NCBI RefSeq assembly: GCF_012912105.1
Contig: NZ_QMEA01000060.1
Location: 1-37,963 of the forward strand
DNA length: 37,963 nt
Direction: 5' to 3'
Source of the DNA: Brasilonema sp. UFV-L1
GTDB taxonomy: Bacteria; Cyanobacteriota; Cyanobacteriia; Cyanobacteriales; Nostocaceae
Part shown: positions 4,264 through 34,662 of the stretch, in pieces
Layout of the letters: each line of letters begins with the position of its first letter
How positions within the stretch are numbered: position 1 is the first letter of the stretch
Made by a program: the position numbers and the translations under genes
Notes under the pieces: generated by a model
The model's input: only the letters and a program-made list of their open reading frames with translations
What the model was told of the DNA's origin: nothing
The model's database searches: none

Positions 4264-4406
4264 AGATCCCCGACTTCTTTAAGAAAAGAACTTACGCAGA
4301 AACCGGGTTTCTTTACGAAAAATCGTCATTTTAGCCGTAAGTCTGTGGTCTGTGAAACCCGATTTCTTTCGTGTCTGTGCGTAAGTCCTGAAGAAGTCGG
4401 GGATCT
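4264..4406. repeat. MITE-like palindromic element between convergent genes
   Basis: Perfect 16-bp terminal inverted repeats, AGATCCCCGACTTCTT (4264-4279) and its complement (4391-4406), enclose about 110 bp. A second inner pair, ACTTACGCA (4290-4298) and TGCGTAAGT (4378-4386), is also perfect, and AAACCGGGTTTC-like blocks pair inside. It fills the space between the convergent malic enzyme and creatininase genes and could double as a bidirectional terminator. The ACTTACGCA core recurs in the element at 19826-20150. Confidence 0.7.
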
Positions 4407-4423
4407 GTATCCGTTGCGAAGCT

Positions 4424-5170
4424 TCAATCTGCACTCAAAAACTCCAGATACCCATTGCTAAGTTCTTTTACCGCCAACTCATAAAACTGTTTCCCATGTT
4501 CAGGTGTCGCCAAAGCCGGATTTGAACCCATTCTGCCATCTGGATATTTCTGGCGGAAGTCAGCAGCACCATAAATCCTGTGTCCAGTACCGACTTCTTG
4601 AGAAAGAGGTGCTTGCTTTATCGCTTCTGGATAGACAAACTGAGTCACAGCAACTTCACTCGGTGTTGCATGGGAACCTTCTTGATCACCGTATAATTCT
4701 TTTACCAACTTGTAAACTGAACTGCACATAAACCAGTTTGCAACTTGACATTGCACTTGTTTGGCGTTGGGAATTTGTATATCTTCTAAGTGGGCGTAGG
4801 TTTCAGAAAAAGCCGCTTTCAGGGTGGCGATGTTACCGCCGTGTCCGTTGATAAAATAGAACTTGGTAAAACCAGCTTTAGCTAAACAAGTGATGTAGTC
4901 TCGCACCACTTGAATCATAGTGCTAGGACGCAGACTTATACTCCCAGGAAAAGCGGTGTGATGTAATGCCATGCCCACATTGATTGTAGGACCAACCATT
5001 GCTTGAGTGGCTTCACCTACACCACGGGCGATCGCCTCTGCACAAATCGCATCTGTACCAATTAATCCTGTAGGCCCATGTTGTTCTGTGGAACCAATAG
5101 GGAGAATAATACCCTTAGACTGCTGGAGATAAGTCTCGACTTCCTGCCAGGTGCTTAAATGCAATAACAT
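4424..5170 (-). CDS. Creatininase-family amidohydrolase
   Basis: Metal-dependent amidohydrolase of the creatininase fold, 248 aa, a normal family length. Visible family motifs are IILPIGSTEQHGPTG (metal-binding Glu and His), LIGTDAICAEAIA (metal-binding Asp), ALHHTAFPGSISLRP and FINGHGGNIATL. Members act on creatinine, on formamidopyrimidine-type intermediates or on peptide precursors in cofactor maturation; the substrate here is unknown. ATG 5170 gives the standard N-terminus. A broken copy of the first third of this gene and its upstream DNA lies at 9009-9185. The next minus-strand gene upstream (PstS-like) begins 156 bp away, so co-transcription is possible but not evident. Confidence 0.85.
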   Translation of the reverse strand: MLLHLSTWQEVETYLQQSKGIILPIGSTEQHGPTGLIGTDAICAEAIARGVGEATQAMVGPTINVGMALHHTAFPGSISLRPSTMIQVVRDYITCLAKAGFTKFYFINGHGGNIATLKAAFSETYAHLEDIQIPNAKQVQCQVANWFMCSSVYKLVKELYGDQEGSHATPSEVAVTQFVYPEAIKQAPLSQEVGTGHRIYGAADFRQKYPDGRMGSNPALATPEHGKQFYELAVKELSNGYLEFLSAD

Positions 5171-5325
5171 TTTTTATCAGCGTCCTCATCAAAATTGCGG
5201 AGAAAGAGAACTTTGTCTGCTTGGATAGCATCTTCTGTAACTCACCTCCACTAACACGATTATGAACTCTGTTTGTGCAAGGTGGAGGCAAGAACGGCGA
5301 ATTTCATGAAGCTGATAACTGTCAC

Positions 5326-6357
5326 CTAGAATAAAGTTGCTCGTTTACGTAAGACTTCGCTAAGAGTCAGGTTTAACACAGCTTCCCCATTAAATACTGT
5401 TCCAACTTCACCTTGATGGAATTGAACAAGATCCAAGTGATAAACTTCCCCTGATAGAGGGATGTAGCCAACCTGACCAACCAACTTGGCAGCCTTTTCC
5501 AGATAGAAATCTACAAATTCCTTCACTTCAGGTTTGTTTTGGGCAGACTCAGAGTTGATGTAGATAAACAGTGGGCGAGATAGGGGTTGATATTGAGTTT
5601 TCTCCACCGTCTGACGTGAAGGCAGCACAGGACCTTTGCCGTTGTCAACTCCTAAAACTTTGACTTGACTTGTGTTGGCTTCGTAGTACGCAATGCCAAA
5701 GTAACCCAAGGCATTTGGGTCTTGGCTGACTCCCCTGACCAACACGTTGTCATCTTCGCTACTTGTGTAATCAGTGCGTGACGCTTTGCGTTTACCTACT
5801 GTTGCTTGTGTGAAGTAGTCAAAAGTACCAGAATCCTTGTCTGCACCATAGAGGTTGAGGGGTTTATCGGGCCAGGTGCTACGAATCTGATTCCATTTAG
5901 TAATTTTCCCTTGGGCGGCTGGTTCCCAAATTTTCTGCAACTCGGCAATCGTGATGTCTTTTGCCCAATCATTTTTAGGATTGACTACTACAGTGAGGGC
6001 ATCAAAGGCAATAGGGAGTTCTATATAACCGACCTTGTTTCGGTTACAGATTGCCATTTCTTCTTTAAGGATAGGGCGCGAGGCGTCGCTGATATCGGTT
6101 TTCCCTTCGCAGAACTTTCTAAACCCACCAGTGGTACCGGAGATGCCAACCTTAATTTGCACCGGGTTTTCTCGGCTACCATTAAACTCTGCTGCAATCA
6201 ACTTTGTGATGGGATAAACTGTGCTAGAACCATCAATGTTAATTGTCTGCTTTCGCGTCTGGGCGCTAGTGAATGGCTCTTTGATGATTGCCGTAATCAT
6301 AGTCATAAAAACAAGAATTCCAAGCGGAATCGTCCACCTCTTTACTATTGTGTTCAT
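5326..6357 (-). CDS. pstS: Phosphate ABC transporter substrate-binding protein (PstS/SphX type)
   Basis: Periplasmic binding protein for phosphate import, 343 aa. Residues 8-30 form a hydrophobic signal or anchor segment ([16 protein letters not shown]). The mature part begins [20 protein letters not shown], the phosphate-binding GSST element, followed by [26 protein letters not shown], the second ligand loop, and [16 protein letters not shown], the third. These are the landmarks of PBP_like_2/SphX proteins. No pstC, pstA or pstB gene is next to it, so it is an orphan binding protein, as cyanobacterial sphX copies often are. An upstream Pho box could not be identified with confidence. Confidence 0.88.
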
Positions 6358-6547
6358 TACCTCAATCCCATGCTGTGAAATAAATTAGGTATCTTGCTTT
6401 GTACAAATGTCCCGCTTGTTCTACGCTTAATCTTGTTATCAATTCAGGCTCGTATTTAAGAGATACTGTACCTAATGAGAAGTTTACTCTGTTGAACTAA
6501 AAATGTGTAGCTTAAGGAATTTGCAAAGTATTACCCTAGATGTCAGC

Positions 6548-7642
6548 CTACCTCACTGACTGACAGCAAGGGTAAAGATCGTCAATATTGCGAAGCATTG
6601 TCTTACAAATGGCATCTAAAGGTAAATCATTTGGATCCTCACCGAAAGGCTCTTCAATTTCCGCCCCGATTTCATCAATACTAAGCAAGATACAGCTCAA
6701 GAAAGCTAATATTGGTCCAGTCCACCAAGTTAAACCACTGACTAATTCCCAAGGAAGTAGCAGGAAATAAATTGTCAACAGCATCTTGAGGGTAATAGTA
6801 TACACCAAAGGCACTGGTGTTTTCAAAATGCGCTCACAACCACCCAACAGATTCACCATTTCATCTAGCAATTGATGTAGAGCATTTAACTCCAAAATAT
6901 CGACACATTGACGCTCATGCTGATGCTGGAAATAATCTCCAATCCAGTAAGCAATTTTTAGCGGGGGATGATTTACGTCTTGGAGTGTGTAATACTTAGA
7001 TGATGACATTAAGGAAGCTAATTCAGAATTGACAGGTTGCCTTCGCAGATGCAGCTTCATGGCGACAGCAAACGCAACGACTAGTCGTAATATTGCTTCT
7101 TTTTCTGTTCTATCTTCTGGCTCGCGTTCTTTAATGACGATGCAGATTCTCCTCGCCAGGTTGCGAACAGTGTTAATCATTCCTCCCCACAATTTTCGAG
7201 CTTCCCAAAAGCGATCGTGCGCTGTATTTGTTCGGAAAATTAATAGTAATGATAAGACAATGTTGAGACAAATGACAATATTGGGAATTGCTTTAATGTC
7301 AGTATTAACTTTCGATATACTCCCATAGTAGTTGAGCAGTGAAATAAGAAAACCATATCCTCCCCACAAGATAACCCAGGGAAGAATTGCCTGAATCACA
7401 GTCTGTGTAAGGTGGAAGGTTACTTTAAACCCAGGAAGTTGTTCACCAGTGTACAGCCCAAATCTTTCGCTGAATGATCTCTTCGCAACATGTTTCTCTC
7501 CCGAGATAAATCTTTTTTGAGATTCTCCCAATAAAAATTTTCTTTGAGAAGTCGAACTCGAAGACTTTTCGCTAGATTCTCTAAAGTTATTATTGTTATG
7601 TTCTGGGGGAGAAGCAGTCTTTTTATTATTCGGTCCTTCCAT
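6548..7642 (-). CDS. Bestrophin-like (RFP-TM/UPF0187) membrane channel
   Basis: Membrane protein of 364 aa related to bestrophins, pentameric anion channels; some algal members are proposed thylakoid bicarbonate channels. The family signature NTAHDRFWEARKLWGGMIN is present near residue 140, with hydrophobic segments before it (VIQAILPWVILWGGYGFLISLL, NIVICLNIVLSLLLIF) and after it (YTITLKMLLTIYFLLLPWEL, ILAFLSCILLSIDEIGAEI), ending in the typical IEEPFGEDPNDLPLD motif. About 60 hydrophilic, Ser/Asn/Lys-rich residues precede the conserved core. A GGAGG Shine-Dalgarno 7 bases before ATG 7642 supports this start, so the extension is probably real. Only 32 bp separate it from the upstream carbonic anhydrase, indicating one operon. 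A joint role in bicarbonate handling is inference; chloride transport is the alternative. Confidence 0.88.
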   Translation of the reverse strand: MEGPNNKKTASPPEHNNNNFRESSEKSSSSTSQRKFLLGESQKRFISGEKHVAKRSFSERFGLYTGEQLPGFKVTFHLTQTVIQAILPWVILWGGYGFLISLLNYYGSISKVNTDIKAIPNIVICLNIVLSLLLIFRTNTAHDRFWEARKLWGGMINTVRNLARRICIVIKEREPEDRTEKEAILRLVVAFAVAMKLHLRRQPVNSELASLMSSSKYYTLQDVNHPPLKIAYWIGDYFQHQHERQCVDILELNALHQLLDEMVNLLGGCERILKTPVPLVYTITLKMLLTIYFLLLPWELVSGLTWWTGPILAFLSCILLSIDEIGAEIEEPFGEDPNDLPLDAICKTMLRNIDDLYPCCQSVR

Positions 7643-7674
7643 CTGTCAACCTCCGATAAATGCCTTAGCTTTCC

Positions 7675-8310
7675 TCAAAATGCAGCGAGAGATAATGAGC
7701 GCAATTGCCATTTTTTGGTTGAGACTTGTAAGTCTTTGATCAACCCGGTGCGTATATCCACCACCCAGCCATGAACCTCAGGCGCTTGTTGCTGTTGGAG
7801 TGCTTGACGCATAACAGAAGTTTGGTATAGATTTTTGACTTGCATCTGCACATTCAGTTCTGCTAAACGGTTCCAGCGTTCTTCTTGTGTTGGCAAAGCA
7901 TCAATTTCATCTTGTTTTTGTAAATAGATTTCTCGAATTGGATTCACCCAATTATCAACAAGTCCGATTGCTTTCCCTTCTAACGCCGCCTTAATTCCAC
8001 CGCAACCGTAGTGACCGCCAACAATAATGTGTTTGACTTCAAGATGAACAACTGCGTATTCTAAAATGGCTAAAAAGTTAATATCCGTGAGAGAAACTTG
8101 ATTGGCAATATTGCGATGAACAAATAACTCTCCGGGTTCTGTACCAGTAAATCTTGTTAAGGCTAGACGACTGTCTGAACATCCAATATAGAGATAAGGT
8201 GGTTTTTGTCCAGTTGCCAATTCTTGAAAATAAGTGTGGTCTTCGGCTACTTTTTTTGCAGCCCAAGCCTGATTATTTTTGAGGATTTGTTCAATGCTGT
8301 TGTATTTCAT
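7675..8310 (-). CDS. Beta-class carbonic anhydrase (Can type)
   Basis: Zinc enzyme interconverting CO2 and bicarbonate, 211 aa. The zinc and catalytic residues are visible: YIGCSDSRL (Cys, Asp/Arg dyad) near residue 44 and GGHYGCGG (His, Cys) near residue 100. GELFVHRNIANQV and VHGWVVDIRTGLIKDL are hallmarks of the E. coli Can/plant-type branch. There is no signal peptide, so it should be cytoplasmic. It is the first gene of a two-gene operon with the bestrophin-like channel. Upstream lie a 14-bp tandem repeat and repeated ATCTAAG boxes, possible control sites. It differs in subclass from the second carbonic anhydrase at 13614. Confidence 0.94.
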   Translation of the reverse strand: MKYNSIEQILKNNQAWAAKKVAEDHTYFQELATGQKPPYLYIGCSDSRLALTRFTGTEPGELFVHRNIANQVSLTDINFLAILEYAVVHLEVKHIIVGGHYGCGGIKAALEGKAIGLVDNWVNPIREIYLQKQDEIDALPTQEERWNRLAELNVQMQVKNLYQTSVMRQALQQQQAPEVHGWVVDIRTGLIKDLQVSTKKWQLRSLSLAAF

Positions 8311-8329
8311 AGTTTAACCTCGAATGTAT

Positions 8330-8424
8330 TTTGTTGATGTTTTTTTGTTGACGACAGTTTGTTGACGACAGGTGTTATCTAAGATCAAACTTGATAGTAC
8401 TAGCACTCTTAGATAAGCTTAGAT
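8330..8424 (-). promoter_or_regulatory. Tandem 14-bp repeats and ATCTAAG boxes upstream of the carbonic anhydrase
   Basis: TTTGTTGACGACAG is repeated perfectly head to tail at 8344-8357 and 8358-8371, with a degenerate third unit at 8330-8343. Further upstream of the gene, CTTAGAT occurs at 8408-8414 and 8418-8424 (10-bp spacing), with an inverted copy, ATCTAAG, at 8377-8383. Direct repeats about one helical turn apart suit an OmpR-type regulator, such as the one encoded 1.4 kb away, but that link is speculative. Confidence 0.45.
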
Positions 8425-9008
8425 TTCTATTTATCTAATACTTCATCCATCAACCTTAGCTTTGCAAATGGTTAGCGTTGAGATGACCAAGGACGAAAAC
8501 GATTGCTTTTACCTATAGCAATCTCAGCTTGGTAATATTCAAGTTTTTATCTAATTTTGCTTGCAGATAAGAGTTGACATAAGCAATCTTTGCTGTTTTT
8601 TGCTGGAGTTATAAATCAATTATAAATTTACCACATTTTTAGTTTTTAAAAATATTTAATTATTTAATGAATAATAATCCAATTAAAGTCAGCATTCGAC
8701 CATTTTAGAATATCCAAGCTATCTCTCTCAAGTGAGATATTAATCTGATACATATACAACTGAAAGTGGATACATTGGTTGTTTTCATTTGTTTTTCTAA
8801 ATCGAAAGTGTTCTTGGAGTCGTGCCAGAAATAAACAAAATGGTATGAAGATAACTATTTATTAAAAAGAGATTAAATTAAATTTAAACTACTTTAAATA
8901 AACTTTTTAAATAACCCAATCAACGCTAAATAGCGAGCATGAACTGCAAACCAAGTACTGGGAGGCGGACTTATAGTATCAAGTCGCTGTGCTTTGGGCA
9001 GTAAAATG

Positions 9009-9185
9009 CTTGTGCGATAGACTTTGCAGAAATCCCATCTGTACCAACAAATTTTGTAGATCCGTGTTGTTGTGTAGAACCAATACGCAAAAGAATACTT
9101 TGATACTGCTGGAGAACAGCCTCGATTTCTTAGCAGGTGCTAAAATGCAGTAACATTTTTGATTCAGCATCCTGATCACGATTGC
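9009..9185 (-). pseudogene. Broken 5' copy of the creatininase-family gene
   Basis: Reading the minus strand from ATG 9156 gives MLLHFSTC, stop, EIEAVLQQYQ and then RIGSTQQHGSTKFVGTDG, clearly matching the first 50 or so residues of the intact gene at 4424-5170 (MLLHLSTWQEVETYLQQ, PIGSTEQHGPTGLIGTD). An in-frame TAA replaces Gln9, and the metal-ligand motif STEQHGP is altered to STQQHGS. The similarity continues about 30 bp upstream of the ATG (TCAGCATCCTGATCACGATTGC against TCAGCGTCCTCATCAAAATTGC in the intact copy), so promoter-proximal DNA was copied too. It ends abruptly near 9009. The rest of 8425-9008 holds no gene and is very AT-rich. Confidence 0.8.
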
Positions 9186-9195
9186 ACTTTTTTAG

Positions 9196-9242
9196 GATAA
9201 ATTATGAAAGCTGAATAATGAATTATCGTTCCATAATTTATC
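9196..9242 (-). terminator. Inverted repeat downstream of the cupin gene
   Basis: GATAAATTATG (9196-9206) and CATAATTTATC (9232-9242) are perfect 11-bp inverted repeats 10 bp beyond the cupin stop codon, with a 25-bp loop. They are AT-rich, so a weak terminator or a small repeat is equally possible. Confidence 0.4.
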
Positions 9243-9251
9243 ATTTATTAA

Positions 9252-9524
9252 TTAATCAAAACGATAGTGTTTATTCACATCACTTGTAATTTCCCAAATG
9301 CAGGACATCCCAGCAGGAAAAGTGACTAAATCTCCTTTACCCATTTGCACTGCTTCGCCACCGTCAGGCGTAACAATGACATCACCTTCTAAAAAATAGC
9401 AAGTTTCTTGAGTGTCATAAGTCCAAGGAAACTTTGAGACTTCCTTTGTCCAAATAGCCCATTGGGATACACCCAGTTCATTGAGGTGCTCTTTGCTTGG
9501 TTGACGTTTTACCTTAATTTTCAT
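9252..9524 (-). CDS. Small cupin-domain protein (cupin_3/DUF861 type)
   Basis: Single-domain cupin of 90 aa. It has FPWTYDTQETCYFLEGDVIVTPDG (the first cupin motif) and then MGKGDLVTFPAGMSCIWEITSDVNKHYRF, as in (S)-ureidoglycine aminohydrolase-like cupin_3 proteins. Such one-domain cupins bind small molecules or metals; the ligand here is unknown. A strong Shine-Dalgarno GGAAGGAGA precedes ATG 9524 by 6-8 bases, which decides this start over a longer reading that would run into the promoter of the neighbouring response regulator. It is divergent from the two-component genes. Confidence 0.8.
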   Translation of the reverse strand: MKIKVKRQPSKEHLNELGVSQWAIWTKEVSKFPWTYDTQETCYFLEGDVIVTPDGGEAVQMGKGDLVTFPAGMSCIWEITSDVNKHYRFD

Positions 9525-9752
9525 TGTTTGTCTCCTTCCATAAGAGTGATATGAAAAAGAAGCAATTACGCGTATCTTAAAATCAAAGTTAGTAAAAATA
9601 TGACTTATGTACGCCACATTCACCAAAAAATCTCAGAGAAATCTAATCATCTAAACCTTGGAATGTTCTTGTGTGCTTTTACTGAAAAAAATGTTATTTA
9701 TTATACTAAAAAAAGGAATGTCAAGATAAAATGCACTGAAAAAAGAAAAAAT

Positions 9753-10433
9753 ATGCGGGTATTGCTAGTGGAAGATGAGTCAGGGATTGCTCAATTTATC
9801 AGTCAAGGTCTCAGGGAGACAGGCTACGCTGTTGATGTCGCTCAGGATGGCGAAGAAGGTAGGGAATACATTTCCTGTGTTGAGTACGACATTATTATTC
9901 TAGACATCATGCTACCAAATATTGATGGGTTAAGCTTACTGGGAGAATTCCGCAGCCAAAAAATTCAGACTCCGGTGTTGCTGCTGACAGCACGGGATAC
10001 TATAGAAGATCGGGTTAGAGGGTTGGATCAAGGAGCTGATGACTACTTAGTAAAGCCGTTTGCGTTTTCAGAACTGCTCGCACGTTTGCGAGCTTTACAA
10101 CGTCGTCCTCCATTACAATTCAACAATATTTTGCACTTAGGTGATTTAACTATGAATCTCGTGAAAAGAGAAGTTCACAGATCAGGACGTTTGATTGAAC
10201 TCAGCCCATTAGAGTTTAAACTTTTAGAATATTTGTTGCGTAATTCCGATTGTGTACTCACCCGAACTCAGATTGGTGAGCATATCTGGGACTTTGATTT
10301 TTATCACAATTCCAATGTAGTCGATGTGTATGTCGGTTATCTCAGACGGAAAATAGACCGAGGTTTTGATCAACCATTACTCCATACAGTTAGAGGAGTA
10401 GGATATTGCCTAAAGTCTTGTTCCGTTAGTTAA
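9753..10433 (+). CDS. OmpR/PhoB-family response regulator
   Basis: Two-domain DNA-binding regulator of 226 aa. The receiver domain starts at MRVLLVEDESGIA (acidic pocket), the phospho-acceptor Asp is in IIILDIMLPNIDG, and the conserved Lys is in ADDYLVKPFAFSE. The winged-helix output domain (about 125-225) has LSPLEFKLLEYLLRNSDCVLTR and VDVYVGYLRRKID, ending with HTVRGVGYCLK. ATG 9753 matches the family N-terminus exactly; an upstream open stretch from 9600 adds residues unlike any receiver. The partner kinase begins 5 bp after the stop codon. The pair lies directly upstream of sbtA, so control of carbon-uptake genes is a plausible inference. Confidence 0.93.
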   Translation: MRVLLVEDESGIAQFISQGLRETGYAVDVAQDGEEGREYISCVEYDIIILDIMLPNIDGLSLLGEFRSQKIQTPVLLLTARDTIEDRVRGLDQGADDYLVKPFAFSELLARLRALQRRPPLQFNNILHLGDLTMNLVKREVHRSGRLIELSPLEFKLLEYLLRNSDCVLTRTQIGEHIWDFDFYHNSNVVDVYVGYLRRKIDRGFDQPLLHTVRGVGYCLKSCSVS

Positions 10434-10438
10434 TATCT

Positions 10439-11851
10439 ATGCTGTTCCGATTTAGTAAAAGTACCATTAGAGCACGCCTGACTGGTTGGTACATCATACT
10501 TTTAGGCTGTACTTTGATACTGTTTGCGACTTACTTATATAGTCAATTAGAAACTAGCTTACTTGGTCAATTAGACACAGCTTTGAAAATCACTGCTTCT
10601 GAAATCTCCACTACGTTGGTTGAGCAGAATGGTCATCCTGCCTTTAAAATAACAAAGGACTCAGAAGCGATGACCCATCAGTTAGCAAATGCTGGCTTTG
10701 CTGTACGGTTATTGGCTCCTAATGGCCAAATTTGGGATGCCATTGGTCATTACCAAGAAGTACCATTGAGCATACCAAGAAAACCAGGTTATATTAACCT
10801 AACCAAATATAATAAAATTTGGCGCGTCTACAGTCAACCACTACCAAAATCTCCAAAAACAGGTTGGTTACAAATCGCTCAATCCCTTGAACCAATTTCT
10901 GAAGCGTTAGAACATCTGCTGACTCTGATGCTTTTCAGTTGTCCTCTCATTTTATTAATTGCAGCCTTTGGAGGATTATTCCTAGCGGAACGAGCGTTAC
11001 GTCCCATTGATCGCATTATCCGTACTGCACAGGCGATTGGTCCCAATGATTTTACGCAACGCATTGCCTATCGAGGTCCATTTGACGAAGTGGGACGCCT
11101 AGCTTTTACTATAGACCGGATGTTGGATCGTCTGCAAGCAGCATTTGAGCATGAACGACGATTTATGGCTGATGCATCTCATGAGTTACGCACTCCTCTA
11201 ACTGTTATTAAAGGAAGAATTGGCGTCACCCTGAGTCGATCTCGTACACTCGAAGAATACGAAAATACCCTCACAGACTTACAACGAGAGGTTGATCGAT
11301 TAATTCGTCTTTCTAATGGATTACTTTTCTTGACTCGCCTAGAGCAAAGTGAACTCGGCTATGATGCAAGCTTGACAAATGTTGATCTGAGTCACTTATT
11401 GGAAGTTCTTATAGAGCAAATTCAGCTTTTAGCGGAAGTTGAAAATATCACAATAGTTACCAATATTGACTCCTGTATTTGGATTGTGGGAAACTGTGAT
11501 CACCTAACCAGTATATTTTTAAATTTACTGGATAACGCTATTAAGTACACCCCAAACGGGGGTCAAGTCACAGTAAAAGCACAACAGGACAGATTACAAG
11601 CTCGAATTGCTGTGACTAATACGGGAAAAGGGATTGAACCAGAGCATTTACCCCATCTATTTAAGCGATTCTATCGCGTAGAGAGCGCCCGTTCTCGCAG
11701 TACAGGAGGAGCAGGATTAGGGCTGGCGATCGCCTATGAAATTGTTCGTTTGCATCACGGCACAATTTCCGTCACCAGTCAACCTCATCAACTGACAACT
11801 TTTACCGTGTGTTTACCGCTTGAACGCTTGAATTTGACGCTTGAAGCTTAA
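10439..11851 (+). CDS. Membrane sensor histidine kinase
   Basis: Partner of the response regulator just upstream; 470 aa. Membrane helix 1 is at about 15-36 and helix 2 at about 161-184, enclosing an extracytoplasmic sensor region of about 120 aa with no recognised domain. A HAMP linker follows (ALRPIDRIIRTAQAI). The HisKA box FMADASHELRTPLTVIKG places the phospho-acceptor at His248. The ATPase domain has LNLLDNAIKYTPNGGQV (N box), a GIEPEHLPHLFKRFYR stretch (F box) and STGGAGLGLAIAYEIVRLH (G box). This is the RppB/PhoR-like architecture. The signal sensed is not evident. Confidence 0.93.
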   Translation: MLFRFSKSTIRARLTGWYIILLGCTLILFATYLYSQLETSLLGQLDTALKITASEISTTLVEQNGHPAFKITKDSEAMTHQLANAGFAVRLLAPNGQIWDAIGHYQEVPLSIPRKPGYINLTKYNKIWRVYSQPLPKSPKTGWLQIAQSLEPISEALEHLLTLMLFSCPLILLIAAFGGLFLAERALRPIDRIIRTAQAIGPNDFTQRIAYRGPFDEVGRLAFTIDRMLDRLQAAFEHERRFMADASHELRTPLTVIKGRIGVTLSRSRTLEEYENTLTDLQREVDRLIRLSNGLLFLTRLEQSELGYDASLTNVDLSHLLEVLIEQIQLLAEVENITIVTNIDSCIWIVGNCDHLTSIFLNLLDNAIKYTPNGGQVTVKAQQDRLQARIAVTNTGKGIEPEHLPHLFKRFYRVESARSRSTGGAGLGLAIAYEIVRLHHGTISVTSQPHQLTTFTVCLPLERLNLTLEA

Positions 11852-11862
11852 TTCTAAGAAAA

Positions 11863-11939
11863 TTCTTAATCTTCTCTCATCATTTTCTTAAGATTGGTGA
11901 ACTAACTTATATAAAGTTCATCTACGTTTGCAATTCTTA
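11863..11939 (+). promoter_or_regulatory. Candidate sbtA promoter with TTCTTA direct repeats
   Basis: In the 96-bp gap before sbtA, TTCTTA occurs at 11863-11868 and 11885-11890, exactly 22 bp apart (two helical turns), and again at 11934-11939. A possible -10 element, TATATAAAG, is at about 11908-11916, and AGGAAAAAAG at 11939-11948 offers a weak Shine-Dalgarno. Direct repeats with this spacing resemble OmpR-class sites, so regulation by the adjacent response regulator can be tested. Confidence 0.4.
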
Positions 11940-11947
11940 GGAAAAAA

Positions 11948-12922
11948 GTGATGGATGGAAGCTTAATTCTATTTAATATTCTGAATCCGCCAGTTTTATT
12001 CTTTTTTGTGGGAATGCTGGCGGTTTTTTTAAAATCTGATTTGGAAATACCCCAACCCTTACCTAAGTTGTTTTCCCTTTATTTGCTTTTGGCTATTGGG
12101 TTTAAAGGAGGATATGAACTAGCAGAAAGTGGGATGAATTTGCAAGTTGCAATGACTCTGGTAGCTGCAATTGTCATGGCTTCAATTGTTCCAGTATATA
12201 CCTTTTTTATTCTCAGACTCAAACTTGACCATTATAATGCAGCAGCAATTGCAGCCACCTATGGTTCTATTAGTGCTGTTACCTTCATCACGGCTGGCTC
12301 TTTTCTTGAAAAATTGCATATTCCTTACGGGGGACATATGGTTGCTGCATTAGCTCTCATGGAATCTCCTGCTATTATTATCGGCTTAATTCTAGTCAGA
12401 ATCTTTGCTCCTAAAAATGGTAATGAAGAATTTTCTTGGGGTGAAGTGTTGCGAGAAGCTTTTTTAAATGGTTCTGTATTTTTGTTAGTTTGTAGTGTGA
12501 TTGTCGGAATTCTAACAGGAGAAAAAGGATGGGAAAAATTACAGCCATTCACTCAAGGAATCTTTTACGGTGCTCTTACTTTCTTCTTACTCGATATGGG
12601 ACTAGTTGCTGCTAGAAGAATTAGGGATTTAAGCAAAACAGGTTCTTTCTTAATTGGATTTTCTATCATTATTCCTATTGCAAATGCTATCTTAGGAATT
12701 TTGGTGTCAAAAATCTTAGGATTCGGTCAAGGAAATGGTCTTTTATTTGCAGTTTTGTGTGCTAGTGCTTCATACATTGCTGTGCCAGCAGCAATGAGAT
12801 TAACAGTTCCCGAAGCTAATCCTAGTCTCTATGTCTCTATGGCTTTAGCTTTAACTTTTCCTTTCAATATTATTGTCGGAATCCCTCTTTATTTGGAGAT
12901 AATTAAGATCCTTGGTTTATAA
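11948..12922 (+). CDS. sbtA: SbtA-type sodium-dependent bicarbonate transporter
   Basis: Integral membrane protein of 324 aa, very hydrophobic, with about ten segments. The start NPPVLFFFVGMLAVFLKSDLEIPQPLPK and the next stretch LFSLYLLLAIGFKGGYELA are characteristic of SbtA (DUF897), the high-affinity Na+/HCO3- symporter of the plasma membrane. YGSISAVTFITAGSFLE and the C-terminal half, LLFAVLCASASYIAVPAAMR, match the inverted repeat of the fold. It is about 50 residues shorter than Synechocystis SbtA, mainly in the central hydrophilic loop. The stop codon is 3 bp before the PII-like gene, so the two are translationally linked, as in sbtA-sbtB pairs. Other SbtA-fold members could carry a different anion, but the context favours bicarbonate. 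Confidence 0.9.
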   Translation: MMDGSLILFNILNPPVLFFFVGMLAVFLKSDLEIPQPLPKLFSLYLLLAIGFKGGYELAESGMNLQVAMTLVAAIVMASIVPVYTFFILRLKLDHYNAAAIAATYGSISAVTFITAGSFLEKLHIPYGGHMVAALALMESPAIIIGLILVRIFAPKNGNEEFSWGEVLREAFLNGSVFLLVCSVIVGILTGEKGWEKLQPFTQGIFYGALTFFLLDMGLVAARRIRDLSKTGSFLIGFSIIIPIANAILGILVSKILGFGQGNGLLFAVLCASASYIAVPAAMRLTVPEANPSLYVSMALALTFPFNIIVGIPLYLEIIKILGL

Positions 12923-12925
12923 GTT

Positions 12926-13549
12926 ATGCAACTGGTAAACAGAGTCGAAATTATTATCAGCACCCTGGAACTTAATGAAGTCAAAGACATCTTAGAATCT
13001 GTAAGAGTTTTTGGAACTACAGTGATAGAAAGTACTTTAGGTAAAGGTAAACGGGGTGTTTTTTACAACGATTTAGGTCGTGAATTGAGTCACAGTTATA
13101 TTTCCACTCTTTGCACTCACCACAAACAAATTAATTATCTCATAAGTGATATTATACCTATTCTCAAAAAAGTTGGTGGTATCTGTTTAGTCACTGAATC
13201 TCATTCGGTTTCATCAGAGAAACTTTCCAGCGATGTAGATTTAGAAATCAGCGTTATGCAAGAGGTAAAAAAAGTAGAGATTGTTGTTAACACTTTTTAC
13301 ATTGAAGACACACTAAAAATTTTAGAAACTGTGATGGTATCTGGATACACAATTATAAAAGATACTTCTGGTAAAGATGAAAGGGGGTTATCATACTCAG
13401 ATATTGACTGCCGATTTAGTAGCAGTTATATCATGACAGTTTGTACCAACACTCAACAAGTGAATAACTTGGTTGAAAAAATGACACCTTTACTTAAGAA
13501 AGTAGGAGGTGTTTGTCTAGTGACTGATGCGAAATGGGTTAGTCACTAA
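12926..13549 (+). CDS. Double PII-like (SbtB-like) regulatory protein
   Basis: Protein of 207 aa made of two copies of one PII-like domain. Copy 1 (about 5-97) runs from VNRVEIIISTLELNEVKDILE to VGGICLVTESHSVS; copy 2 (about 113-207) runs from VKKVEIVVNTFYIEDTLKILE to VGGVCLVTDAKWVS. Each has the beta-alpha-beta pattern and a T-loop region (LGKGKRGVFYNDLG and SGKDERGLSYSDID). Position directly behind sbtA matches SbtB, the trimeric PII-like protein that binds adenylates and gates SbtA. A single-domain trimer is the known form; two fused domains are unusual. The C-terminal CGPEGC-type cysteine loop of some SbtB proteins is absent. Function as an SbtA regulator is inferred from position and fold. 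Confidence 0.75.
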   Translation: MQLVNRVEIIISTLELNEVKDILESVRVFGTTVIESTLGKGKRGVFYNDLGRELSHSYISTLCTHHKQINYLISDIIPILKKVGGICLVTESHSVSSEKLSSDVDLEISVMQEVKKVEIVVNTFYIEDTLKILETVMVSGYTIIKDTSGKDERGLSYSDIDCRFSSSYIMTVCTNTQQVNNLVEKMTPLLKKVGGVCLVTDAKWVSH

Positions 13550-13613
13550 ATTTTGGTTAAAATCAAAAACGGTGCAACTACCATGTAAAAAAACAAAAGC
13601 AAATGTCAATTAT

Positions 13614-14300
13614 ATGAACTCAACAATGCCAATCAAGCGAATTATCAAAGGACTCAACGAATTTCAAACGAACTATTTCACTATCCATCAGGAAATGTTT
13701 CGTCAATTGTCTCAAGGACAAACTCCTGAAATTCTCTTCATCACTTGTTCTGATTCCCGAATCGATCCAAATTTGTTAACTCAAACTAAGCCAGGAGAAC
13801 TTTTTATTATTCGTAATATTGGCAATATCATTCCAACACATGGCAATTGTAATAGTAGTGAAGGTGCAGGAATTGAATATGCGGTTTCAGCCTTAAATAT
13901 CAAGCATATTATTGTTTGTGGTCATTCTCACTGCGGTAGTATGAAGGCACTCTTGCAATTAAACAGTTTAAATGAAGAAATGCCTTTAGTTCATGACTGG
14001 TTAAAGCATCATGCAGAATCTACTCGTCGTCTGTTGCGAGAAAACTATAGGGGCTACGATGGAGAGACACTGCTCAAAATAGCTGTTGAAGAAAATGTTC
14101 TCACTCAGATTGAACATCTAGAGACTTATCCAGTTATTCGCTCAAAATTGCATGGTGGAAAATTATCTCTCCATGCTTGGGTTTATGAAATCGAAACAGG
14201 ACAAATATTTGCCTACGATGCAAATAATAGTAAATTTGTTCCTCTAAGTTCTGATCCTTTTCCAGTTCCGGATCCTTTAGCTAGTTTACAAGCGGGATAA
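13614..14300 (+). CDS. Beta-carbonic anhydrase, CcaA/IcfA-like catalytic domain
   Basis: Zinc enzyme of about 228 aa. Catalytic motifs are LFITCSDSRIDPNL (Cys, Asp, Arg) and VCGHSHCGSMKALL (His, Cys). IKGLNEFQTNYF, GELFIIRNIGNIIP, LVHDWLKH and LSLHAWVYEIETGQI follow the cyanobacterial carboxysomal CcaA/IcfA sequence closely, a different branch from the Can-type enzyme at 7675. It ends soon after the catalytic domain and lacks the roughly 50-60-residue tail that CcaA uses in carboxysome assembly, so it may not be carboxysomal. The open frame extends back to 13527, overlapping the PII-like gene; ATG 13614 or 13626 fits the family N-terminus. It is 64 bp behind the PII-like gene, so it is probably the third gene of an sbtA operon. 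Confidence 0.9.
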   Translation: MNSTMPIKRIIKGLNEFQTNYFTIHQEMFRQLSQGQTPEILFITCSDSRIDPNLLTQTKPGELFIIRNIGNIIPTHGNCNSSEGAGIEYAVSALNIKHIIVCGHSHCGSMKALLQLNSLNEEMPLVHDWLKHHAESTRRLLRENYRGYDGETLLKIAVEENVLTQIEHLETYPVIRSKLHGGKLSLHAWVYEIETGQIFAYDANNSKFVPLSSDPFPVPDPLASLQAG

Positions 14301-14327
14301 TCTTATAGAAATTTATAATTAACTTTT

Positions 14328-14425
14328 TAAGTAGGTAGAACAAGAGAGTAAAGATTAACACATAACATGTTTTCTAACTCTACTTTTATAGTTGTATCTT
14401 CAGATGAATTGATTCTACCTACTTA
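14328..14425 (+). repeat. Inverted repeat after the carbonic anhydrase
   Basis: TAAGTAGGTAGAA (14328-14340) and TTCTACCTACTTA (14413-14425) are perfect 13-bp inverted repeats with 72 bp between, followed by TTTTTT. This could be a long-loop terminator for the sbtA operon or a small MITE. Confidence 0.5.
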
Positions 14426-14469
14426 TTTTTTAACATGACAGCACATTGCAAGTCAATGAAGTACAACGA

Positions 14470-14851
14470 AGTAGTTATGTTTTTGCAGATTTACTAGACT
14501 TAATTGCTTTTGCAGGTGTTATTCTTACTAATTAAGAAAGGTCTGATAGCACTTCAAACTTTTATCAATAAAATGATTTACAGTTTGAGTGATAGCGCTC
14601 AGGCATTCATTATCCTTCTATATCTTTACTATTCAAAGATATTTTTGTAGGATTCCATTCACAACACGGGTGGGAGGCGATTCTAGAAAGTTTGGCAACC
14701 CATCTAGGTATTCCAGCAGATAGAAATGTTATTTTTTCTCTTCATTGCTACATTTTCACTCATTCGGAACACCATATTTAAGTACTGCATTTTCTCCTAT
14801 CTGAACCAAATATCGCCTTCAGCAGTAGCAACGCTCAAATATATGAATGAG
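14470..14851 (+). pseudogene. pxcA: Remnant of pxcA/cotA (CemA family, proton extrusion), C-terminal part
   Basis: No intact frame, but successive frames spell the C-terminus of the PxcA/CemA family. SYVFADLLDLIAFAGVILTN lies at 14470-14532, [20 protein letters not shown] in the next frame from about 14543, [20 protein letters not shown] back in the first frame from 14632, and [20 protein letters not shown] shifted again before the terminal KYMNE. At least three frameshifts are needed. Family members have the HGWE motif and an FKYWIFRYLN-x-SPS ending. PxcA/CotA is a membrane protein for light-driven Na+-dependent proton extrusion, needed for efficient CO2 uptake. The N-terminal two thirds are missing. 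Its place right after a bicarbonate-uptake operon is notable. Confidence 0.75.
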
Positions 14852-14997
14852 TCAGAAACTTTATACACTATCTATCTTGTAAAAGGTATCCCAATTCAAT
14901 GGATGTAAAGCATTATTGCGTGGATTGTGTCCCGCTTTCCAAAACTTACTAGGTAGCCAAGTCACTCACTAGAACATCAAAGGATTTGATGAACACC

Positions 14998-15366
14998 CTA
15001 GCAGTAAGATTGAATATCCTCGCCGCAGACATCCGCTAAATAACACAAAGCACGGAAACGTAACCCTACTAATTCGTCGTACAATGGATTTAACTTGCAC
15101 ATAGGAGGAATGTGGGCAATTTTGCGACCAAACAGAAGAATATCTCGCTCAAATGGACATTGAGCGGGGATCATTTTTGCAATCAATCTCGCTAATTTCC
15201 GATTTTGAATTTCTAAAGAATCCAGCTTACAACGTAATGGTTGCAGTAAATCAATTTTCGGCTGAGCAACTTGATTTTGATTGACTTTTTGCTGAGTTCC
15301 TAATTCAGAGGGAACAAAAGCAGAGAAGACAATACGCTGATTATTACTGGATTTGAGCATGGTCAT
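14998..15366 (-). CDS. Mo-dependent nitrogenase C-terminal domain protein
   Basis: Small soluble protein of 122 aa. The last 70 residues (IAKMIPAQCPFERDILLFGR, HIPPMCKLNPLYDELVGLRF, RALCYLADVCGED) are the domain named Mo-dependent nitrogenase C-terminal (PF06967), common as short stand-alone proteins in cyanobacteria. The first 40 residues are poorly conserved and rich in Gln and Asn. Despite the name, a role in nitrogen fixation is not established for these short proteins. The start may be M1 (15366) or M3 (15360). It is transcribed alone. Confidence 0.8.
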   Translation of the reverse strand: MTMLKSSNNQRIVFSAFVPSELGTQQKVNQNQVAQPKIDLLQPLRCKLDSLEIQNRKLARLIAKMIPAQCPFERDILLFGRKIAHIPPMCKLNPLYDELVGLRFRALCYLADVCGEDIQSYC

Positions 15367-15910
15367 AACTTAAGTTCATCCTTACATTTTGATTTGTCTG
15401 GTTGCAGATTTTGGTTGGTCATACAATCTATTTCTATAGCTTATGAAATAGAATCATGGCAACACCAAATATATGTATACACGCAATATTTACTTTTGTA
15501 AACACCGTATATCATTTTTATTTAAACTGACCGTAGTGTGAAAAACTGTTCAACCTAATACAATATTATAAAAAAAGTCTAAAGAAGCCTTTTATACTTA
15601 TTGAAATCTGATATTTGTCATATCCATTTCATATCTCGAATGTAAACGACCCTAGCTAAAACCACACAGTACCTTGAGGTGTAGTTTTTTTGATGAGAAG
15701 AGTCGTTTCGCTCATACTTAAGCTATAGGTTGTACTGATGTTATTTATAATAATATCTTATTTTAACTATTGCCTCACTAGTGTAGTGTGAGATATGTCA
15801 CAAAATACTAAGATATAAATTACCCAAATAGCAGTCTGCACAGACTTCGGTAAGCATGTGCAAATATAGTTGACAAAGCTAGTTGATAAAGCTCTTGACA
15901 TAACGCCTCT
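15367..15910. other. AT-rich intergenic stretch without a gene
   Basis: No reading frame with coding character is seen. One possible plus-strand terminator is present: AAAACCACAC (15658-15667) pairs imperfectly with GTGTAGTTTT (from 15679) and runs into a T-tract. Otherwise nothing is recognised. Confidence 0.4.
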
Positions 15911-16110
15911 TTATAGTTGGTCGGGGAACAGCAGCTTTTCTGCTGTATCCTTTCGATAAAACTCAATCAGCCTTTGCTCAATTTGCAAGCGCATCTGTAA
16001 CGGTTCGCTACGGTTATCTTGGATAGGTTCATAAGTTTCTCCCCGCAAGCGATCGCCCCGCAACTGTTCTTCAACACTATTTTAGTATTCTGTCAAGCGT
16101 TGCTCCGGTG
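15911..16110 (-). pseudogene. Decayed ORF downstream of the STAND gene
   Basis: On the minus strand one frame reads QAPEQRLTEY, stop, NSVEEQLRGDRLRGETYEPI and then EPLQMRLQIEQRLIEFYRKD, ending at a stop at 15911-15913. A second in-frame stop lies just before QAPEQ. Codon use looks genuine, so this is probably the tail of a dead gene. The text recalls the C-terminal tails of Uma2-type proteins, but this is uncertain. Confidence 0.4.
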
Positions 16111-33558: not shown

Positions 33559-34662
33559 ATGCATCTCAATATTGCTAATGCAAAGATTTTAATTTTGGCA
33601 GCAATCCCCCACAGCCTGCGTTTGGATAAAGAGATTCGGGAAATTGAGTCAGCTATAAGAGGAGCCAGCAATCGGGGTTCATTTGAAATTAAGATTAGAA
33701 CCGCTGTACGTCCTCAAGATATTCGCCAAGCAATTGCAGAAGAACAGCCTCTAATCGTTCATTTTTGTGGACACGGCTTAGAAGATGGCAGCTTGTTGTT
33801 AGAAGATAATGACGGAAACAACAAACCTGTATCACCAAAAGCGTTGGCATCACTGTTGAAATTGCACGCTGATGGTGTTAAATGTGTAGTGCTTAACGCT
33901 TGTTATTCAGAAAAAACAGCGGTGGCAATTAGCCAATACATTAGTTATGTGATTGGCATGAATAACCCAATCAAAGACAGTGCAGCAATTGAATTTTCTA
34001 CGGGATTTTATGATGGACTGGGTTATAAAATTTCCAATAATCAAGATTTATTTAAAAGAGCCTTTGAAGAAGGCGTGGTTGCTATTGAAATGGAAAATTT
34101 TTCACAAGGATCAATACCAGTTTTAAAACAAAGATTTGAGAAAAATATCAATATAATAGTTGAAAATATAAGATATGAAAAATTAGAAGAATTACTGAAA
34201 AAAAGAAAATGGAAAGAAGCAGATAAAGAGACTTTGGAGATGATGCTGAAGTTAGTGATGCGGAGAAATCAGCAGTTTTTATATGAAGAAGATATCAAGA
34301 GTTTAAGTGATAATTTCAGTGATGAATCTGTGGAGCAAAAGCTAATAGACATTGATGGTCTATGGTCTAAATACAGTAATGAACTATTTGGCTTCAATAT
34401 CCAAAAGCGAATATATTTAGATACAGAAAAAGATTTTAATGTGTTTTCTGAAAGAGTTGGGTGGAGAAAGAAACGAGGAATTTTTGGAGCATTCTTTAAC
34501 TGGAAATCTTATGAGGAGTTAGATTTTGAATTAACTGCTCCTAAAGGTCATCTACCTTTCTTAGTACATACAGATACTGTTGTCTCTCCAATAGGTAGTA
34601 AATTGGGTACATCATCTGACAAACTTCTTTTACTATGTCTAAAAAATATCAAGTTTAATTAA
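33559..34662 (+). CDS. CHAT-protease-like domain fused to a GUN4 domain
   Basis: Protein of 367 aa. Residues 8-175 are a CHAT (caspase-HetF-associated) domain: ILILAAIPHSLRLDKEIREI, catalytic His72 in IVHFCGHG, catalytic Cys115 in VVLNACYSEKT, and VIGMNNPIKDSAAIEF. Residues 207-335 are a GUN4 domain: LEELLKKRKWKEADKETLEM, LWSKYSNELFGFNIQKRIYL, FSERVGWRKK and ELTAPKGHLP. GUN4 binds tetrapyrroles and stimulates Mg-chelatase; fused GUN4 domains occur with kinases and proteases in cyanobacteria and may be ligand sensors. A caspase-like protease gated by a tetrapyrrole sensor is an inference. No TPR repeats and no signal peptide are seen. Confidence 0.85.
   Translation: MHLNIANAKILILAAIPHSLRLDKEIREIESAIRGASNRGSFEIKIRTAVRPQDIRQAIAEEQPLIVHFCGHGLEDGSLLLEDNDGNNKPVSPKALASLLKLHADGVKCVVLNACYSEKTAVAISQYISYVIGMNNPIKDSAAIEFSTGFYDGLGYKISNNQDLFKRAFEEGVVAIEMENFSQGSIPVLKQRFEKNINIIVENIRYEKLEELLKKRKWKEADKETLEMMLKLVMRRNQQFLYEEDIKSLSDNFSDESVEQKLIDIDGLWSKYSNELFGFNIQKRIYLDTEKDFNVFSERVGWRKKRGIFGAFFNWKSYEELDFELTAPKGHLPFLVHTDTVVSPIGSKLGTSSDKLLLLCLKNIKFN

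Follow-up and report, generated by a model that had tools for sequence, protein, structure and literature searches.

Closest system and overview

The described systems closest to the locus analyzed here are built around SbtA. SbtA is a trimer capped by a trimer of SbtB (PMC8352866), and SbtB has been proposed to plug and release SbtA according to the adenylate state (PMC8352866 and, in its accessible part, PMC10991534). The regulators of sbtA named in the accessible parts of PMC13249358 and PMC13421787 are LysR-type, AbrB-type, or cAMP-receptor proteins; the term "two-component" is absent from the main text of PMC13249358, and none of the titles found in literature searches describes the combination of an sbtA operon and a two-component system reported here. 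This combination lies in Brasilonema sp. UFV-L1 (genome of 8.3 Mb), in a window that is one entire contig of 37,963 bp. An original prediction had treated 8.3 kb of this window as a single inorganic-carbon island controlled as one regulon by the linked response regulator (RR). The genes that it named are two separable modules side by side, not one island. We think it reasonably probable that module 1 is a bicarbonate-uptake operon with its own two-component switch and that module 2 is a separate block.

The open reading frames (ORFs), the Pfam and NCBIfam families, and the spacings were rechecked, and the window proteins were compared by tblastn with stretches fetched from relatives; genomes are given below as G codes, loci and stretches as L codes, and genera as g codes. 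From an SbtA-based contig scan, the best 80 of 299 confirmed loci were used, and a contig scan with the tandem PII alignment did not find the relatives. The phylum was sampled by an even set of 386 genomes. Pfam and profile searches recovered every gene that had been named (a bestrophin, two carbonic anhydrases, the RR, a histidine kinase [HK], SbtA, and a two-domain PII-like protein), and the spacings of 3 bp and 64 bp between sbtA, PII, and carbonic anhydrase genes and of 32 bp between carbonic anhydrase and bestrophin genes were correct. A second pxcA fragment, a pstS gene in the bestrophin block, the box at positions 11855 to 11890, and a pair of direct repeats had been missed. Module 1 (positions 9753 to 14851, plus strand) has the order RR-HK-sbtA-double PII-carbonic anhydrase-pxcA:

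9753..10433, plus strand: OmpR/PhoB-type RR (Pfam Response_reg and Trans_reg_C)
10439..11851, plus strand: HK with an extracytoplasmic sensor domain (HATPase_c, HisKA, and HAMP; sensor model)
11855..11890, plus strand: putative regulator box, TAAGAA-N2-TTCTTA-N5-(T/C)TCTCA-N5-TTCTTA
11903..11908, plus strand: TAACTT, a -10-like hexamer 12 bp past the box
11948..12922, plus strand: sbtA, probably of the second SbtA family, starting at GTG 11948 or ATG 11951 (PF05982, E value of 2e-125, 418.6 versus 27 bits)
12926..13549, plus strand: double PII-like protein, with domain 1 at about residues 1 to 96 and domain 2 at about residues 111 to 207
13614..14300, plus strand: CcaA-like beta-carbonic anhydrase without a C-terminal extension (PF00484; 5swc, E value of 3e-82)
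14464..14851, plus strand: decayed C-terminal part of pxcA, last in module 1 (PF03040; intact in G094 and G023)

A box upstream of sbtA accompanies the two-component genes

The box spans 36 bp and consists of three TTCTTA/TTCTCA half sites at an 11-bp pitch plus one inverted half site; its full pattern has 24 scored bases and its short form has 18. The window copy differs from the pattern by one mismatch, shuffled windows gave zero matches, and in the whole Brasilonema genome the 24-base pattern was found once at three or fewer mismatches, upstream of sbtA. Of 158 sbtA loci collected, 117 distinct ones were kept after the removal of those in which the sbtA start was missing (match beginning past residue 6), those with no more than 100 bp of upstream sequence, and those whose last 100 bp duplicated an earlier locus. 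All 13 loci with the RR and HK genes in the fetched stretch lie at 0 to 3 of 24 mismatches, and all 102 loci without the pair in the stretch have at least 4 mismatches (83 of them 9 to 11), a contrast weakened by the kinship of the loci, which are not independent trials, so that its nominal Fisher value is not to be read literally. The remaining two loci were set aside, namely, L116 (0 mismatches, pair about 27 kb off) and L194 (3 mismatches, contig end). Among 24 chosen genomes, one box occurred in each of 14, which are precisely the genomes that have sbtA together with the pair (including G178, whose kinase is interrupted by a contig end), and always before sbtA; the reversed pattern gave one match across the same 24 genomes.

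A genome-wide kinase search of 61 chosen genomes matched 15 at 1e-75. In Planktothrix (g107), G373 and G342 carry both kinase and box, whereas G240, G192, and G405, with no kinase at this threshold, have 4, 5, and 6 of 18 mismatches to the short form; by these counts, the box is decayed in the Planktothrix genomes without the kinase. In genus g48, kinase and box are both present in G261, G314, and G248 and both absent from G341. G356 (g48; no kinase match, partial sbtA) and G299 (g107; no sbtA match in the stretch) were left out of this contrast. Microcystis and Planktothrix SbtA are equally close to the window SbtA (82 to 85% for Microcystis); no kinase match was found in the seven Microcystis genomes searched, and no Microcystis locus lies within 3 of 24 mismatches. 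The named loci with the pair include those of Sphaerospermopsis kisseleviana, Dolichospermum circinale, and a Planktothrix, members of bloom genera.

The occurrence of the box with the pair, and its absence or decay where the pair was lost, points to a dedicated carbon-uptake switch, and because box presence follows the RR and HK genes across loci, the linked regulator probably controls the sbtA operon. This is the supported part of the predicted regulon. Module 2 did not bear out the rest: neither the window nor any of six related loci has a box near it (best match, 7 to 9 of 24 mismatches). At window positions 4401 to 9700, the best three-half-site match has 5 of 18 mismatches. A box common to module 2 was excluded on these counts.

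Promoter geometry and the two-component pair

OmpR/PhoB regulators typically bind direct repeats at an 11-bp pitch, and at PhoB-type activated promoters the activator site replaces the -35 element. Downstream of the box by 12 bp is a TAnnnT motif whose bases 1, 2, and 6 are invariant in 15 of 15 loci, most flanking columns being low in information. No conserved -35 hexamer was found in the aligned loci, so the box probably takes the -35 place. Counts of consensus promoters were not informative (30 observed versus 25.4, with a standard deviation of 4.2, in shuffled sequence), and a search for RNA elements at window positions 4400 to 16000 gave no Rfam match at the gathering score.

By Pfam, the RR combines a receiver with a winged-helix output domain and the HK combines HAMP, HisKA, and HATPase domains, as in OmpR/PhoB two-component systems. 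RR relatives that adjoin sbtA stand at 70 to 88%. The RR is below the cutoff of every NCBIfam model among the 25 listed; the heavy-metal models (CzcRS/CopRS) reach 247 versus 279.2 and 259.8 versus 292.55 bits. In a fold search with the sensor-region model (predicted local distance difference test [pLDDT], 83.4; predicted template modeling score [pTM], 0.71), a WalK model was the sole match below an E value of 0.001, with PDC/Cache, PhoQ, and CzcS weaker, and no invariant His or Cys was found among 15 aligned sensors. Two same-genus genomes, G001 and G004, carry a related pair (RR, 69 to 70%; HK, 53%) beside a 927-residue ORF (L261, 3907 to 9918; L262, 6657 to 13336), which Pfam identifies in G001 as a cation P-type ATPase. 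In the G004 stretch (L262), TCTCATNNTTTTCTTA occurs four times at one mismatch or less versus 0.03 expected, three of these copies lying between the kinase and the ATPase gene. These repeated copies by the related pair support the view that this regulator subfamily targets the half-site pair.

Two modules with separate distributions

Module 2 (positions 5326 to 8602, minus strand) has the order pxcA-Can-type carbonic anhydrase-bestrophin-pstS on a single strand:

5326..6357, minus strand: PstS-family phosphate-binding protein (TIGR02136, 308 bits versus a cutoff of 206.6; order conserved in relatives)
6548..7642, minus strand: bestrophin-family channel (PF25539, E value of 4.9e-83, 279.4 bits versus a cutoff of 27)
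7675..8310, minus strand: Can-type beta-carbonic anhydrase (PF00484)
8430..8602, minus strand: fragment of the module 2 pxcA paralogue (83% DNA identity to G087)
5028..5198, no strand: direct repeat copy 1 (creatininase 5' end), beside module 2
9014..9184, no strand: direct repeat copy 2, on the opposite side of module 2

Among the fetched loci, the two modules are adjacent in the window only. The complete six-gene module 1 is present in G094, G060, and G105. In G094 it has the same neighbors as in the window, the cupin gene on one side and the Mo-nitrogenase-C gene on the other; in G060 and G105 it lies elsewhere. G023, of the same genus as G094, has module 1 without the carbonic anhydrase and with an open pxcA of 430 codons. 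The module 1 run, with two PII genes or one, is also found in G402, G373, G342, G261, and G248; the RR and HK genes are downstream and convergent in G248, and the carbonic anhydrase is split in G261. In the window, the carbonic anhydrase is present and pxcA is a C-terminal remnant, a relic already recognized in the original prediction, with PF03040 matches at positions 14464 to 14742 and 14495 to 14851 and stops in both. In G087, G117, and G079, module 1 is missing at the site and a homologous C-terminal pxcA piece is retained; because this piece remains there, module 1 was probably present once and later lost. Alternatively, the site may reflect transfer of module 1. Elsewhere in its genome, G087 has an sbtA-PII-carbonic anhydrase-pxcA run without the RR/HK pair (L205).

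Among the 118 genomes listed, at least six carry module 2, with all four genes in at least four (G087, G123, G026, and G112) and parts in G098 and G138. It adjoins the same creatininase and cupin genes in G087, G123, G026, G098, and G138, and it is not near the creatininase gene in G112. The creatininase and cupin genes are direct neighbors, with no module 2 between them, in G023, G094, G001, G004, G117, G079, and G011. In the window, module 2 is flanked by two imperfect copies, in direct orientation, of a 170-bp stretch from the creatininase 5' end, and it looks to have been inserted. Thus, of the gene order expected to be conserved, sbtA-PII-carbonic anhydrase-pxcA recurs as an operon-like run, and the 8.3 kb as a unit does not among the fetched loci, each module recurring without the other in relatives.

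The pxcA gene was lost from both modules in the Brasilonema genome, in which two intact pxcA-family paralogues persist elsewhere. In G023, L042 (3490 to 5269) contains a 589-residue ORF and an overlapping 200-residue ORF, IS607/OrfB-type-like by eye, between the cupin and RR genes. A stand-alone Mo-dependent nitrogenase C-terminus protein (window positions 14998 to 15366; PF06967) lies next to module 1 in the window as well as in G023 and G094. Farther away, positions 33559 to 34662 encode a protein carrying CHAT and GUN4-like domains.

Origin of the double PII-like protein

Both halves of the double protein are PII-like by profile and structure model, forming two domains of ferredoxin-like fold in one frame, so it is not a single-domain protein like SbtB. 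The C-terminal CGPxGC R-loop is absent from its sequence, as it also is from some SbtB proteins according to the accessible part of PMC10991534. Full-length fused PII proteins are found in 6 of 217 genomes of the family, belonging to 4 of 56 genera. Two adjacent PII frames occur in eight loci from seven genomes (L109 to L113, L116, L123, and L163), mostly in the same reading frame with stops between them, the first being truncated in L123 and L163. In a tree of 87 domains over about 100 columns, the first halves group together in a single clade (100), with the first of the two L116 genes as its sister (96), and the second halves fall within a clade (98) that also contains second genes and single genes from other genera. 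The weak spots of the tree are the second halves of the fused proteins as a group (75), an inner node (49), and the position of the second-type clade inside the first type (50). On phylogenetic grounds, the tree and the adjacent-gene loci show the double PII to be a fusion of two older adjacent paralogues, with duplication placed earlier and fusion later. On the same two lines of evidence, we rejected a single recent duplication of the PII domain. The T-loop of second-type domains often contains C-x4-C, the first cysteine of which is lost in the window, and the first halves are without the C-terminal W-x-x-H found in single forms.

SbtA and the carbonic anhydrases

The Brasilonema genome encodes two SbtA-family proteins, which are 74% identical. 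The second operon, on contig C299 (L003, 7238 to 9251), has the order sbtA-single PII-carbonic anhydrase, and its carbonic anhydrase has, by eye, a twin-arginine-like start. The window SbtA matches the Slr1512 structure at an E value of 5e-24, with two stretches, both inverted repeats, aligning with 7cye. Of the bicarbonate-contacting residues of Slr1512, namely, S114, Y140, S324, and S327 (PMC8352866), S114 and S324 are kept in the pairwise alignment, Y140 is L, and S327 is A. In the 386-genome sample, 100 genomes match the window SbtA at 1e-20; the full-length matches comprise a group of at least 53% identity that spans many families and five at 27 to 28%. The former group is probably the SbtA2 described in the accessible parts of PMC13249358 and PMC9477826.

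Beta-carbonic anhydrases are marked by the motifs Cys-x-Asp-x-Arg and His-x2-Cys, and both enzymes in the window have these and match PF00484, for which the genome has eight matches. The description of the two enzymes as unrelated has to be given up, as they share one Pfam family and are 32% identical when aligned (E value of 5e-27). The C-terminal extension of CcaA binds CcmM. Of the 26 listed operon enzymes, which are not all independent, 23 end in FP[VI]P[DN]PL and three in close variants, and the long extension of the type seen in the Brasilonema C276 enzyme is absent from all 26. Because it lacks the extension of the other CcaA-like enzyme, the operon carbonic anhydrase probably acts outside the carboxysome. 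Bestrophins, of which the genome has three matches, have been linked to bicarbonate in algae and animals in the accessible part of PMC10096703; the bestrophin of the window is tied to carbon through its neighbor genes only.

Proposed mechanism and alternatives

In the proposed mechanism, the kinase would read a cue outside the cell, the likeliest candidates being a shortage of carbon or the accompanying alkaline pH or Na+ state. The phosphorylated RR would then bind the 36-bp box, standing in for the -35 element, and activate sbtA and the PII and carbonic anhydrase genes. By analogy with its family, SbtA would import bicarbonate with Na+, and, as in SbtA-SbtB, the T-loops of the double PII may cap SbtA from the cytoplasm according to adenylates; three fused PII chains might, speculatively, form two stacked rings. 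The carbonic anhydrase would work outside the carboxysome. The pxcA gene that ends module 1 is decayed here, and module 2 would be a separate block without this box.

Several observations weigh against this mechanism. In many loci, the -10-like hexamer resembles TATAAT poorly, and the window SbtA, keeping two of the four bicarbonate contacts, is not placed in SbtA1. L230 and L194 lack a PII match in the operon, in which a carbonic anhydrase gene (partial in L194) and then pxcA come after sbtA. The Microcystis locus L134 has 3 of 18 mismatches to the short form with neither the RR/HK genes in its stretch nor the kinase in its genome (G326), and G031 has one 3-mismatch match elsewhere in its genome. 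In the 386-genome sample, matches at three or fewer mismatches were found in 11 genomes versus 16 matches of the reversed control; all four matches at 0 to 1 mismatch (from genomes already in the set) precede sbtA, and of seven at 3 mismatches, one does. Judged by these matches against the control, the pattern is specific at 0 to 1 mismatch and, at 3, meaningful solely in front of sbtA.

The pair may instead be an ion, metal, or pH sensor of the CzcRS/CopRS kind, with the operon answering stress and bicarbonate uptake being a means or by-product, a reading that we regard as unlikely yet credible. Heavy-metal RR and HK families are the top-scoring NCBIfam models, with scores below the cutoff in each case, CzcS is among the weak fold matches of the sensor, the related pair in G001 and G004 adjoins a cation P-type ATPase, which hints at an ion signal, and the SbtA family is Na+-dependent according to the accessible part of PMC13249358. 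However, the 15 aligned sensors share no invariant His or Cys, and in the Brasilonema genome the box marks the sbtA operon alone. It is improbable, in our judgment, that the box belongs to a different regulator and the RR and HK genes co-travel by linkage, even though the pair adjoins the operon in most cases, so that linkage alone could give much of the co-occurrence. Such linkage does not account for G242, with a perfect box and the pair about 27 kb from sbtA, or for the Planktothrix and g48 genomes without the kinase, which lost the box and kept sbtA; in addition, the 11-bp-pitch direct repeats are typical of OmpR/PhoB regulators, and the related pair has the same half sites close by.

Least credible is the reading that the entire 8.3 kb forms a single carbon island governed as one regulon by the linked regulator, which we consider highly improbable. 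Both modules include a carbonic anhydrase and, originally, pxcA, and module 2 lies near the same creatininase and cupin genes in five relatives, but module 2 has no box nearby, is absent from the site in G023 and G094, is off the creatininase gene in G112, and lies between repeats in the window. The island as a single unit was rejected on the separate recurrence of the modules, the direct repeats, and the confinement of the box to module 1.

A kinase that tracks one operator before one bicarbonate-pump operon would make outside sensing of carbon, pH, or Na+ testable. The fused PII raises the question of how a two-domain PII fits on a trimeric transporter, and the extension-less CcaA-like enzyme raises that of how a carbonic anhydrase works beside a bicarbonate pump without a short-circuit.

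Comparison with known systems

We give about an even chance to the broader proposal that this is a previously undescribed two-component system dedicated to a second-family sbtA-PII-carbonic anhydrase-pxcA operon, which would act via the 36-bp operator and a fused alpha/beta PII reading two signals on a threefold transporter, a surface-sensing route separate from LysR-type internal metabolite sensing. Like the sbtA-sbtB operon of Slr1512 and SbtB, the window has a transporter gene followed by a PII-like gene; unlike it, the transporter is probably of the other SbtA family, the PII is double and without the CGPxGC loop, and a carbonic anhydrase gene, pxcA, and a two-component pair are added. SbtA2/SbtB2, as presented in the accessible parts of PMC13249358 and PMC9477826, is a second SbtA family with a different PII-like partner and a wide spread that fits the identity group of the window protein; those parts mention no two-component pair, pxcA, or fused PII. 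The nearest solved structure to the operon carbonic anhydrase is 5swc (E value of 3e-82), which is CcaA (PMC10536570, accessible part); the operon enzyme differs in having no C-terminal extension, with 228 residues versus 277 in the C276 enzyme from the same start. CPII of Thiomonas is the best PDB sequence match to the double PII (E value of 2e-4) and ranks second by fold in Foldseek (E value of 4.7e-6), behind an unrelated ferredoxin-like protein; CPII has a single domain, whereas the window PII is double. The promoter resembles the PhoB/PmrA type in its direct repeats at an 11-bp pitch ending just before a -10-like element, and it differs in having an inverted half site in addition to three direct ones and in the single genome match at three or fewer mismatches.

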